45,641 nt of DNA from an uncultured Methanobrevibacter sp. (GTDB taxonomy: Archaea; Methanobacteriota; Methanobacteria; Methanobacteriales; Methanobacteriaceae), in NCBI GenBank assembly GCA_900314605.1, contig OMVX01000007.1, positions 1-45,641 on the forward strand, in the 5' to 3' direction. The notes under the pieces are model-generated. The model was given only the letters and a program-made list of their open reading frames with translations. It was not told the origin of the DNA and made no database searches. The translations under genes were made by a program, and so were the position numbers. Shown in pieces: positions 7,111 to 11,893 of this stretch; positions within the stretch are counted from its first letter, which is position 1; each line of letters starts with the position of its first letter.

Positions 7111-8925
7111 TTAATCTGAATTATTTAGCATATCTAATTGTTTTTTAGCAGCTTCTCTAATTGGATAAACTGAATATGCTTTATGAATATTTCCATCATC
7201 ATCCATTCTTTCTTCATAATCATTCCTTATTGAATCATTATCACGTATATACTTTAAATTATCTATGTTATTCATGTATTTTACTGCATTTTCACGTTCT
7301 ACTTTCTTTCCATTTTTAGCTATATCAAATAATAAATCTTCTTGAATAGTAGAATCTTCAATCATTAGTATAATATCAATATCTTTAAATTTATTAGCAA
7401 TATTTATGATGGTATCTTGATTTAAATTAGCCTTTTCAACAGCTGCCTTACGTACAAATGGACTAGAATCATTTTTAGCAATGTCTTCTAAAACAAATTC
7501 ATCAGTAATCTTTTTAACAGCAGCTTCACGAACAAATGGACTAGAATCATTTTTAGCATTATAAATTAAAGTAGAATCACCACTAATTTTTTCAAAAGCA
7601 GCTTCACGAACAAATTCATTTTCATCATTTTTTGCAATATCTACTAAAATAATCTCATCACTAATTTCTTCAACTGCACGTTTTCGAACCGAAGCTTCAG
7701 AGGCATTTTTTGCAATATCTATTAAAATTGACTCATCATGAATTTTACTAACAGCTTGACAACCTTTTTTCCAAATATCACTATTTTTTGCAATATCTGC
7801 TAAAACAGACACATCATCAACCATTTCAATAGCTTCTTTATAAGAATATTCATAAGAGCCATAAATAGTTTCATGTGGACAAGTTTTTGCAATAAATTCT
7901 ATACTAAGTTTATTATAAGCTTTTTCACGACAAGGAGTTAATATATGATTTTGAGAAATATTATATAAAATAGGCTCAGATTCAATATTTTCAATAGCTT
8001 CATCAGTAATATCCTTATAATTTGCATTTATTGCAATATTTCCTAAAATAGATTCATCACTGATTTTTTTAAGAGCATTTTGACGAACAGAATAATCAGA
8101 ATCATTTTTAGCAATATATGTTAAGGTAGTTTCATCATTAATCTTTTTAACTGCATCTCTTCGAACATACTCATCCTCATTATTTTTAGCAAGGTCAATT
8201 AAAATTGACTCATCATCTAGCATATCCACACAATATTCATAAATATTTGGATTAGATTTACCAATTTCCATTAAAAGGGAGGAATCATTAATTTTTTTAA
8301 CTGCTTTAGCAGATACTGAATCTGTTTTAGAATTTTTTACAATTTCAATTAAAATTTTTTCATCATTAATCTTTTCAACTGTTTTTAAACCAATATTATC
8401 ATTAGAAGCATTTATAGCAATATCACTTAAGAGAGTATCATCATTAATTTTTTCAAGTGCTTTATAACCAATATCTGTACTAGGAGTGTTTTTTGCAATA
8501 TCTGCTAAAACAGATGTAGTTCCAATATTATTTATAATAATATCAGCAAATTCATCATTTTTACACTCTTTTCCAATATTTGCTAAATAAGATTCATTAT
8601 CTTTAATTTTTTCAATGGCTTTTAAACGAACATCTTTAGATTGGTCTTTATCTTTAGCAATATTAAATAAAATATCTTTATCATTAATATTATTTGTAGC
8701 TTCTAGTCTAACCTCACCTGAAAGAAGTAAATCATTATTAGCAATATCAGCTAAAACAGCATCTGAATTAACCTTTTTTACAGCTTCTAAACGAACTCTC
8801 CAATTTTTATCATTTTTTGCCATATTGGTTATTATTTCCTGATCATCTAATTCTTTTAATGATTCTATTCTCACTTTATAGTCGCTTTGTTCATATTTTG
8901 GTTTAAATAAATCCTTAAATCCCAT
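7111..8925 (-). CDS. HEAT-like repeat protein, about 20 repeats
   Basis: This 604-residue protein is built almost entirely from about 20 tandem units of 26 residues, with the pattern L-x2-IAKND-x4-VR-x2-AV-x-KI-x-DE. Such units fold into paired helices that stack into a solenoid for binding other proteins. There is no signal peptide or membrane helix, so it is cytoplasmic. The N terminus (MGFKDLFKPKYE) matches the out-of-frame N terminus of the gene at 145-1336, making the two paralogues. Units near residues 460-515 are almost identical (AKNDSSPFVR twice), showing recent repeat duplication. Start ATG 8925 follows GGGATATT. The family resembles leucine-rich-variant and HEAT repeat proteins; the binding partner is unknown. 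Confidence 0.85.
   Translation of the reverse strand: MGFKDLFKPKYEQSDYKVRIESLKELDDQEIITNMAKNDKNWRVRLEAVKKVNSDAVLADIANNDLLLSGEVRLEATNNINDKDILFNIAKDKDQSKDVRLKAIEKIKDNESYLANIGKECKNDEFADIIINNIGTTSVLADIAKNTPSTDIGYKALEKINDDTLLSDIAINASNDNIGLKTVEKINDEKILIEIVKNSKTDSVSAKAVKKINDSSLLMEIGKSNPNIYEYCVDMLDDESILIDLAKNNEDEYVRRDAVKKINDETTLTYIAKNDSDYSVRQNALKKISDESILGNIAINANYKDITDEAIENIESEPILYNISQNHILTPCREKAYNKLSIEFIAKTCPHETIYGSYEYSYKEAIEMVDDVSVLADIAKNSDIWKKGCQAVSKIHDESILIDIAKNASEASVRKRAVEEISDEIILVDIAKNDENEFVREAAFEKISGDSTLIYNAKNDSSPFVREAAVKKITDEFVLEDIAKNDSSPFVRKAAVEKANLNQDTIINIANKFKDIDIILMIEDSTIQEDLLFDIAKNGKKVERENAVKYMNNIDNLKYIRDNDSIRNDYEERMDDDGNIHKAYSVYPIREAAKKQLDMLNNSD
7454..7558 (-). repeat. Internal direct repeat in the HEAT-like gene
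   Basis: A 27-nt sequence is present identically at 7454-7480 and 7532-7558. The copies are 78 nt apart, exactly 26 codons or one protein repeat. It encodes the shared AKNDSSPFV segment and marks a recent in-frame unit duplication. Confidence 0.85.
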
Positions 8926-9156: not shown

Positions 9157-9199
9157 GGATGATATTAATATAAAAATTATAAAATTTAATGTGATAAAA

Positions 9200-9583
9200 A
9201 TGACAGACAAAAATAATCTTGAAAAAAGAGATGATGATATTTGCGAAATAATGGACCCACATGAAGATGTTATCGAAAGAATGAAAACTCATATGATAGA
9301 TGATGAAAAATATCAGGAATTAACAGAGTTTTTTAAAATATTTGGTAACTCTACAAGATTAAAAATAATCTCATTACTTTCATTTGAAGATTTATGTGTT
9401 TGTGATATTTGTGAAACATTAAATTTAAACCAGACAACAGTTTCAAATCAATTAAGAATTTTACGTGCAAATAACATAGTAAAATATGAAAAAGAAGGTA
9501 AAATGGCAAGATACTCACTTACAGACCTTCACATAGAAATGATATATAAAATTGGTTTAGAACATGCCTTAGAAGAAAAATAA
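9200..9583 (+). CDS. ArsR/SmtB family metal-sensing repressor
   Basis: The product is a 127-residue winged-helix repressor. The DNA-recognition helix is TTVSNQLRILRANNIV and the wing is YEKEGKMARYSL. Two metal sites are visible. The alpha-3 type has Cys66 and Cys68 in DLCVCDIC, as in CadC, with Cys15 available from the N terminus. The alpha-5 type is D-x-H-x10-H-x2-E in the last helix (TDLHIEMIYKIGLEHALEEK), the exact SmtB zinc spacing. In this family, metal binding releases the repressor from DNA. I place the start at ATG 9200, since the open frame's earlier GTG (9191) is part of the Shine-Dalgarno GTGAT. The ATPase gene begins 12 nt after the stop, so the repressor should control its own operon. 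The likely signals are Cd, Zn or Pb. Confidence 0.93.
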   Translation: MTDKNNLEKRDDDICEIMDPHEDVIERMKTHMIDDEKYQELTEFFKIFGNSTRLKIISLLSFEDLCVCDICETLNLNQTTVSNQLRILRANNIVKYEKEGKMARYSLTDLHIEMIYKIGLEHALEEK

Positions 9584-9595
9584 AAGGTGTTGTAA

Positions 9596-11893
9596 ATGAA
9601 AGATAATAAATGTTATGACTCTGATTGTAACGAAGAAGAATGTTATGATCCTAAACATTATAATTATATTTGCTTTAATCCTGATTGTGACGATGTTCCC
9701 TGCAAAAACAATGAGCATTATAAAAGAGAACTATTACATGAACATCAAAAAAACACCGATTTTGATGTATATGATCATAGAGAAGATATTGACTATAGTG
9801 AAGATGTTGAAATAAGTCTCTGTGGATGTTCAGATTGTGATGATGATAAAGATAATCATAATCACAGTCACGACCACGATCATCATCATGACCACGACCA
9901 TGAACATGATGACGAATGTAATTGCAATCATCACAAAGAGGACAATAAAAATAGCACCAATGATAATAATGAGGATGATGATGAAGAAGAAGAATTACTT
10001 GCTGAAGGCAAACCATTAATTTATAATAGGCCTATTCAAATTATACTAAGTAGTGGAATATTGTTTATTATAGGACATATTTTAGAAATAATCTCATTTA
10101 ATCCAACAATAACCAATACAATTTTTATAATTAGTGCTTTAATTGGAGGATATCAAATTGCAATTTCAGCATATAAGTCTTTAATCAAAAAACATACTAT
10201 TGGACCTTCACTACTTATGTGTATTGCATGTGCAGCATCATTTATAATAGGACATCCTGAAGAAGGTGCAGCAGTTGCATTATTATACTTTATTGCAGAA
10301 TTCTTAGAAGATTACTCAGAACATAGAGCAAAACACTCCATAAAATCATTAATGGAAATTGCACCAGATACAGCATGTGTAAAAGATGGTGATGCAGAAA
10401 AAATCATTCCTGTTGATGATGTTAACGTTGGAGATGTAGTTATTGTAAAACCTGGAGATAAAATCCCTCTTGATGGTTATATAAGTCAAGGCTCCTCATC
10501 TATAAATCAAGCATCAATTACTGGTGAAAGTTTACCAGTACATAAAGACGTTTCAGATGAAGTATTCTCAGGAACTGTAAATGAAGAAGGATATTTGGAA
10601 ATTGTAGTAACCAAAAAAGCAAAAGATTCTGTAATCAGCAAAATCGTAACATTAGTTAAAAGGTCCCAACTTCACAAATCAGAAACAGAAACATTAGTAG
10701 ATAAAATCGCAAAATATTATACTCCAATAATGATTCTAATATCTGTCTGTGTTGCATGTATTCCACCATTACTATTTAATGGTAACTGGAATATCTGGAT
10801 TTATAAAGCACTTTCAATCATGGTAATCTCATGTCCATGTGCATTTTTAATTTCAACCCCTGTAGGTATGGTCTCATCCATTACAGCTGCAACAAAAAAA
10901 GGAGTTTTAATTAAAGGAAGTTCATATGTTGAAGAAATGAGAAATATTAAAGCTGTAATTCTTGATAAAACCGGAACCTTAACTGAAGGTAAATTAGTAT
11001 TAAGTAAAATTGAAGTAAAAAATGAAGAATTTACTAAAGAGGAAATAATAAAAATATTAGCATCCCTTGAACATAACTCTTCACATCCTATAGCAAAAGC
11101 AATTTTAAACTACGCTGATGAAAATAATATTTCATATGAAGAAATTACAGACTTTAAAAATGTTGCTGGAAAAGGTATTGTAGGATTTTTAAATGGTGAA
11201 GAATATTATGCTGCTAATGAATCATTAATTGAAGGATCTGAATTTAACATATCCAGAGAGGAAATTAACAACTATTCCAGAAAAGGAGAAACAATAATCT
11301 GTCTTGGAAATTCCAAAAGTGTAATTGGAATAATAACTGTAAGTGATAAGATAAGAGACGGTGCAGGAGATGTTATATCTGACCTTAAAAATCAAGGTGT
11401 TAAAACAGTTATGCTTACAGGAGACAATAAACTTGCAGGAGAGAAAGTAGCAAATGAACTTGGTTTAGATTATGTTTATACTGACTTACTACCTGAAGAT
11501 AAATTAAATCTTCTAGATACAATTCGTAATAAATTTGGTGATGTAGCTATGGTAGGAGATGGAATAAATGATGCACCTGCACTTGCAAGGGCAAATATTG
11601 GAATTGCAATGGGAGCAGCAGGTTCTGAAGTTGCTATTGAAACAGCGGATGTTGCATTAATGCAAGATGATATTTCTAAATTACCATATCTATTTACATT
11701 AAGTAGAAAAACTATGGGTATTATCTCCCAGAACATTACACTTGCAATTACTATAAAAATCCTATTTGTAATACTTGCAACACTCGGATTAATCACATTA
11801 ATGATGTCTGTAGGAATAGGAGATTTAGGTTTAACATTACTTGTAATTTTAAACTCATTTAGAATTAGTAGGGTTAAAGATCCTTTATTCTAA
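9596..11893 (+). CDS. Zn/Cd/Pb-exporting P1B-type ATPase with a Cys/His-rich N terminus
   Basis: The 765-residue pump has all core P-type motifs: TGES (309-312), CPC in the membrane helix (413-415), DKTGTLT with the phosphorylated Asp457, the HP motif of heavy-metal ATPases (497-498) and GDGINDAP (from 654). The CPC motif followed by STPVGMVSS, and GDLGLTLLVILNSFRI at the C terminus, fit the Zn/Cd/Pb subgroup (CadA/ZntA) rather than copper pumps. The usual ferredoxin-like HMA domain with GMTCxxC is missing. In its place are about 140 residues rich in Cys, His and Asp. Residues 6-41 carry Cys or His at every fifth position, then a CGCSDC motif and a long His/Asp tract follow. A ribosome site AGGTG (9585-9589) sets the start. 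It is co-transcribed with the repressor. Confidence 0.93.
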   Translation: MKDNKCYDSDCNEEECYDPKHYNYICFNPDCDDVPCKNNEHYKRELLHEHQKNTDFDVYDHREDIDYSEDVEISLCGCSDCDDDKDNHNHSHDHDHHHDHDHEHDDECNCNHHKEDNKNSTNDNNEDDDEEEELLAEGKPLIYNRPIQIILSSGILFIIGHILEIISFNPTITNTIFIISALIGGYQIAISAYKSLIKKHTIGPSLLMCIACAASFIIGHPEEGAAVALLYFIAEFLEDYSEHRAKHSIKSLMEIAPDTACVKDGDAEKIIPVDDVNVGDVVIVKPGDKIPLDGYISQGSSSINQASITGESLPVHKDVSDEVFSGTVNEEGYLEIVVTKKAKDSVISKIVTLVKRSQLHKSETETLVDKIAKYYTPIMILISVCVACIPPLLFNGNWNIWIYKALSIMVISCPCAFLISTPVGMVSSITAATKKGVLIKGSSYVEEMRNIKAVILDKTGTLTEGKLVLSKIEVKNEEFTKEEIIKILASLEHNSSHPIAKAILNYADENNISYEEITDFKNVAGKGIVGFLNGEEYYAANESLIEGSEFNISREEINNYSRKGETIICLGNSKSVIGIITVSDKIRDGAGDVISDLKNQGVKTVMLTGDNKLAGEKVANELGLDYVYTDLLPEDKLNLLDTIRNKFGDVAMVGDGINDAPALARANIGIAMGAAGSEVAIETADVALMQDDISKLPYLFTLSRKTMGIISQNITLAITIKILFVILATLGLITLMMSVGIGDLGLTLLVILNSFRISRVKDPLF

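Follow-up and report, generated by a model that had tools for sequence, protein, structure and literature searches.

We report that the heavy-metal ATPase encoded in the window (the whole 45,641-nucleotide stretch of uncultured Methanobrevibacter DNA analysed here) begins with eight Cys and His residues set at every fifth position, and we propose, with a probability of roughly 0.6, that they form a small, unnamed cytosolic domain for Zn/Cd, with two Cys3His sites, and that this domain would either sense metal or deliver it to the pump. Metal binding by this domain, its stoichiometry, the identity of the metal and a part in sensing or delivery are what we infer from the sequence, whereas the array itself can be read directly from the N terminus of the protein, MKDNKCYDSDCNEEECYDPKHYNYICFNPDCDDVPCKNNEHYKRE..., and its parts are as follows.

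9596-11893, forward strand: P1B-type heavy-metal ATPase of 765 residues, class P1B-2 (Zn/Cd/Pb) by its residues, without an HMA domain.
9611-9721, forward strand: periodic domain, two 20-residue units of the form C-x4-C-x4-C-x4-H-[YF]-x3, with eight putative ligands at period 5.
9611-9670, forward strand: unit 1, residues 6-25, with C6, C11, C16, the invariant P19 and H21.
9671-9730, forward strand: unit 2, residues 26-45, with C26, C31, C36 and H41.

The order C,C,C,H,C,C,C,H at residues 6-41, which the initial annotation had placed at 9611-9721, proved exact by codon coordinates, the codons starting at 9611 (C6), 9626 (C11), 9641 (C16), 9656 (H21), 9671 (C26), 9686 (C31), 9701 (C36) and 9716 (H41). 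A period-5 run of eight arose in 0 of 200,000 trials when the first 51 residues were shuffled with their ten Cys and His residues kept, which places the domain beyond chance; conservation is the stronger evidence. Since a search by spacing pattern would have been circular, homologues were collected by profile from all fetched loci, with the pattern forming no condition of the search. This yielded 90 distinct domain sequences that align over 45 columns with 0 insert columns and no indels, and the spacing, whose absence from close orthologues had been named beforehand as a possible refutation, is thus kept. C11, C16, P19, H21, C26, C31, C36 and H41 are invariant in 90/90 homologues and C6 is present in 88/90, both exceptions being first copies of doubled domains from Methanosphaera. 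The ligand codons differ only synonymously (TGT/TGC and CAT/CAC; C16, for instance, is TGT in 67 and TGC in 22), while overall identity to the window drops to about 40-50% as non-ligand positions diverge at constant spacing. Besides P19, the conserved non-ligand residues are Y7, Y/F22, I25, L46 and L47. This constancy, set against the His-rich spacer behind the domain, which varies from 74 to 268 residues, shows strong purifying selection on the eight residues and on the distances between them.

The two halves of the domain are homologous, as the reading of the array as two copies of a 20-residue unit had implied: hhalign aligns unit 1 with unit 2 at a probability of 98% (E 2.5e-13), and outside the ligands the units share 26% identity as against 10% with columns shuffled, a value as high being reached in 7 of 5000 shuffles. 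In several genomes unit 2, too, shows every element of the unit-1 signature, proline included. In Methanosphaera the whole 40-residue domain is tandemly doubled to give four units (L049, L084, L149, L150, L151 and L153), with the first cysteine of the first domain copy lost in L049 and L149. These sequences are most simply read as a domain built up from the 20-residue unit, and this reading speaks for a predicted ligand pairing with one Cys3His site in each unit.

With regard to distribution, the first 50 residues were matched in 88/139 Methanobacteriaceae genomes, in records named Methanobrevibacter, Methanosphaera and related uncultured Methanobacteriaceae, and a DNA signature of the single unit recovered the same 88/139 genomes plus one clear chance match elsewhere (G044:C2); a reversed control pattern gave one match across the 139 family genomes. 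Within these 139 genomes the domain is therefore restricted to this ATPase, the one chance match aside. The ATPase family itself is more widespread, being present in 117/139 genomes, and its identity to the pump of the window falls into two bands, about 55-100% and 43-50%. In a tree of 49 ATPase cores, 25/25 domain-bearing rows fall to the same side of a branch supported at 100/99, and the deepest row of that clade, L147, has the domain. The domain arose once.

Several MAGs of the clade at first seemed to be without the domain, an absence explained by contig ends within His-rich repeats, and two apparently split genes of 340 residues (L090 and L093) turned out to be N-filled assembly gaps. MAG contigs ending within the His/Asp/CxC repeats include L048, L054, L058, L063, L071, L206, L207 and L208 among others, and as a result automatic annotation will often split this gene or miss its N-terminal domain. 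Searches outside the family, each run without an in-group positive control, gave no domain in the phylum of an Asgard (Helarchaeota) locus (L092; 227 genomes), none in that of L098 (296 genomes), and two marginal matches, both spurious, in that of L100 (299 genomes). Neither plasmids and phages searched by tblastn nor a viral collection scanned with the profile gave a significant domain match, and eight viral contigs with the eight-ligand pattern were set aside as low-complexity, repeat or stop-containing frames with no relatives.

The pump that carries the domain is itself conventional. It scores 603 bits against TIGR01525 (cut-off 346) and 504 bits against TIGR01512 (cut-off 313.5) in NCBIfam, its closest solved structure is ZntA (4umv, E 2.5e-111), and DKTGTLT at residues 457-463 marks the P-type core. 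CPC at 413-415 (within ISCPCAF, 411-417), K721 and D743 line up with ZntA 4umv, and we take a CPC in TM4, a Lys in TM7 and an Asp in TM8 to be the marks of class P1B-2. By its residues the protein is thus a P1B-2 Zn/Cd/Pb pump, with transport itself predicted. Two further features follow the periodic domain, both present as the initial annotation had described.

9821-9838, forward strand: CGCSDC motif, residues 76-81, with C76, D80 and C81 invariant in alignment A1.
9860-9934, forward strand: His/Asp-rich tract, residues about 89-113, of very variable length among orthologues.

In relatives the motif reads CGCPDC or CNCDDC and is often repeated directly ahead of the first membrane helix, and across homologous loci the spacer from the periodic domain to the membrane part measures 74-268 residues and contains 11-90 His. 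Opposite the His/Asp tract, on the reverse strand at 9675-10016, there is an open frame of 113 residues rich in His, Tyr and Asp, which is most likely a mirror of repetitive GAT/CAT codons and not a gene.

A Pfam scan found no HMA domain (CxxC) in the ATPase, as had been noted. The further suggestion that the periodic domain replaces a missing HMA domain did not survive comparison with the sister clade, where pumps without the periodic domain have irregular tails rich in Cys, His and Asp, and where the same scan found no HMA domain in ten of them; a replacement of HMA in this lineage is therefore not supported. Judging by these sequences it was probably added to a metal-rich tail, or became ordered from one. 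The pump of a horse-faeces archaeon (L095:3284-4979), which was not placed in the tree and is 68% identical to the pump of the window in its best segment, is without the periodic domain and has kept the His tract and a CGCPDC motif. This suggests that the domain is not strictly needed. The gene is also apparently frameshifted after about residue 379 of the open frame. In one sister-clade pump, L201 (G102:C105), the N terminus YCHDEECHDDFCSDEECHDDCRDDHCHEVGCSC has cysteines mostly at five-residue spacing, including the C-x4-C-x4-C-x4-C stretch YCHDEECHDDFCSDEEC, which is perhaps an independent step towards period-5 geometry outside the domain clade.

Upstream of the pump lies a gene whose stop is 12 nucleotides from the ATPase gene, giving a two-gene unit.

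9203-9583, forward strand: ArsR/SmtB-family metalloregulator, the frame being also open from a GTG at 9191.

The regulator matches PF01022 (E 9.6e-16) and NF033788 (80 bits, cut-off 55) and aligns with SmtB (1r1t, E 1.8e-17), with CadC (1u2w, E 2.5e-15) and also with CzrA. We located in it both the CadC-like cysteines of CEI and CVCDIC and an SmtB-type alpha5 motif, D-x-H-x10-H-x2-E; we take CVCDIC to be the metal-ligand segment of CadC (alpha3N) and D-x-H-x10-H-x2-E the alpha5 zinc ligands of SmtB, and this combination points to Zn/Cd/Pb sensing. An ArsR gene is found upstream in 131/135 loci with enough upstream sequence, these loci being partly redundant. At four doubled-domain loci (L084, L149, L151 and L152) there is no ArsR gene within 700 nucleotides upstream. 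Further upstream in the window, the reverse strand at 7111-8925 encodes a 604-residue protein of degenerate HEAT-like repeats (DIAKND..VR..AV.KI.DE..L).

How might such a system work? A rise in metal would cause the CadC/SmtB-like repressor, whose gene lies directly upstream, to release the operon. Each unit of the periodic domain would bind one Zn2+ (or Cd2+/Pb2+) through its own three Cys and one His, and the domain would form the ordered portion, of high affinity, within an extended N-terminal region that collects metal, in which it is followed by the His/Asp-rich tract, as the looser part, and then by the CGC(P/S)DC motifs by the first membrane helix. The metal-filled domain might then relieve an inhibition of the pump or hand its metal to the membrane site. 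A function of this kind is proposed on the precedent of other P1B-ATPases, where N-terminal metal domains are either required if the enzyme is to be fully active or sense metal in autoinhibition, and where, when loaded, they raise activity by delivery or by lifting autoinhibition (PMC11970713). In plant HMA4 the CCxxE and di-Cys sites bind Zn at nanomolar affinity, and its Cys sites count for more than its His stretches (PMC6255694).

Alternatively, the domain might be purely structural, holding two Zn permanently for folding and docking on the ATPase or on another protein (e.g., in autoinhibition), with no sensing or handover. The rigid spacing together with P19, Y7, Y/F22, I25, L46 and L47 does resemble a folded core, unlike the irregular sister tails, and docking by metal-dependent tails has precedent (PMC11970713). 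Yet the domain is found on a metal pump only, beside other Cys/His-rich segments, and has no link to a second partner protein, so that we consider a solely structural role unlikely. A different possibility is that the N terminus is a disordered chelating tail such as the sister clade has, its period-5 spacing having arisen as a side effect of the expansion of short repeats and of recent shared descent. The remainder of the N terminus does expand and contract freely, the sister pump L201 has its own C-x4-C-x4-C-x4-C stretch, and AlphaFold2 confidence is low (pLDDT 52 and pTM 0.25 for 84 residues; pLDDT 64 and pTM 0.29 for 51 residues with 87 sequences), the models, too uncertain to resolve the ligand geometry or to count against a fold, holding little beyond a helix behind the domain at about residues 44-52. 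That the spacing never changes and the ligands almost never do while non-ligand positions diverge, unlike in the adjoining tract, that the ligand codons change only synonymously, and that the domain is retained in L147, the deepest member of the clade, together make such a tail decidedly improbable.

A third possibility, that the domain belongs to a known small zinc family and has diverged within it, was approached through AZUL and the CCCH fingers. AZUL zinc ligands follow C-x4-C-x4-C-x28-C, and AZUL (PF16558) was considered because its ligands include C-x4-C-x4-C and because 5/26 members of the family match it weakly in Pfam (best E 0.075). Against one human AZUL sequence, confirmed against 6u19, hhalign gave a probability of 0.7% over 8 columns, and 0/60 family genomes exceed the Pfam cut-off. 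CCCH fingers are spaced C-x(4-15)-C-x(4-6)-C-x3-H, and the best Pfam match of this kind was Nab2-zf4, in one member at E 3.4; the last spacing of the domain is x4, not x3, in 90/90 homologues. A C-X4-C-X4-C-X3-H finger, one residue off the domain pattern, has been reported in soybean (PMC13025927). With no match in a PDB sequence search and none by Foldseek, the latter telling little given the low-confidence AlphaFold model, a hidden AZUL or CCCH finger has a very slim chance of being the answer. A match to a named zinc domain had been set beforehand as another possible refutation, and none came up.

We return to the proposed Zn/Cd-binding domain, which would serve the pump as sensor or loader. 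The bolder claim that it represents a new type of small metal domain, with strictly period-5 ligands, duplicated Cys3His units and a fold that differs from those of known zinc fingers, acting as the sensor or loader of gut-methanogen P1B-2 pumps, is one to which we would give even odds. It is still debated whether the N-terminal metal domains of P1B-ATPases hand over metal, detect it or keep the pump closed (PMC11970713). A 40-residue, sequence-defined domain that arose once on a pump without HMA, and that can be compared with sister pumps free of it, offers a small test system supplied by nature. Pfam and NCBIfam would moreover gain a family for which they have no entry, from Methanobrevibacter and Methanosphaera, which rank among the main methane producers in the guts of humans and ruminants.

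The initial annotation knew of no described metal-binding domain with this pattern, and within the libraries searched this stands: the domain alone gave no significant match in Pfam, NCBIfam or PHROGs, 26 or 87 relatives gave only weak matches in Pfam/NCBIfam, and domain profiles gave no significant match in the PDB, where a retro-GCN4 peptide (1c94, E 0.66) matched the C-terminal helix only. A text search across 5.39 million openly available papers for C-x4-C-x4-C-x4-H as written, or in compact spelling, found neither, and other spellings would escape it.

Comparison with known systems places the domain among several partial likenesses. Like it, the AZUL domain of UBE3A (PF16558) has ligands, there for zinc, spaced C-x4-C-x4-C over a short stretch, but its fourth ligand is a distant Cys, whereas here a His follows five residues on and the pattern restarts at once; AZUL has no duplicated unit and no significant profile similarity to the domain. 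CCCH (C3H) fingers such as those of Nab2/TZF also set three Cys and one His within about 16-20 residues in tandem, but end in x3-H and belong to an eukaryotic RNA-binding context, as compared to x4-H and no profile match here. The HMA domain (CxxC, ferredoxin-like) of ZntA/CadA/CopA shares the cytosolic N-terminal position and the probable role at a Zn/Cd pump, with one CxxC in about 70 residues as against eight period-5 ligands in 36 residues and two predicted sites. The His-/Cys-rich tails of P1B-2 pumps, in the sister Methanobacteriaceae as in the di-Cys tails of plant HMA2/HMA4, likewise hold ligands in a cytosolic extension, and the pump of the window also has a His/Asp tract of this kind; such tails are loose, variable repeats, while the domain has fixed spacing and conserved non-ligand residues. 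The N-terminal metal-binding domain of LpCopA likewise combines a small metal core and a flexible tail and is a proposed metal sensor, although it has one trigonal sulfur site for Cu/Ag that uses CXXC and Met, is without C-x4 periodicity, and has its tail and core in the reverse order (PMC11970713). Set beside these systems, and within the libraries searched, the domain is an undescribed, lineage-restricted element, one that probably binds metal, on an otherwise ordinary Zn/Cd pump.
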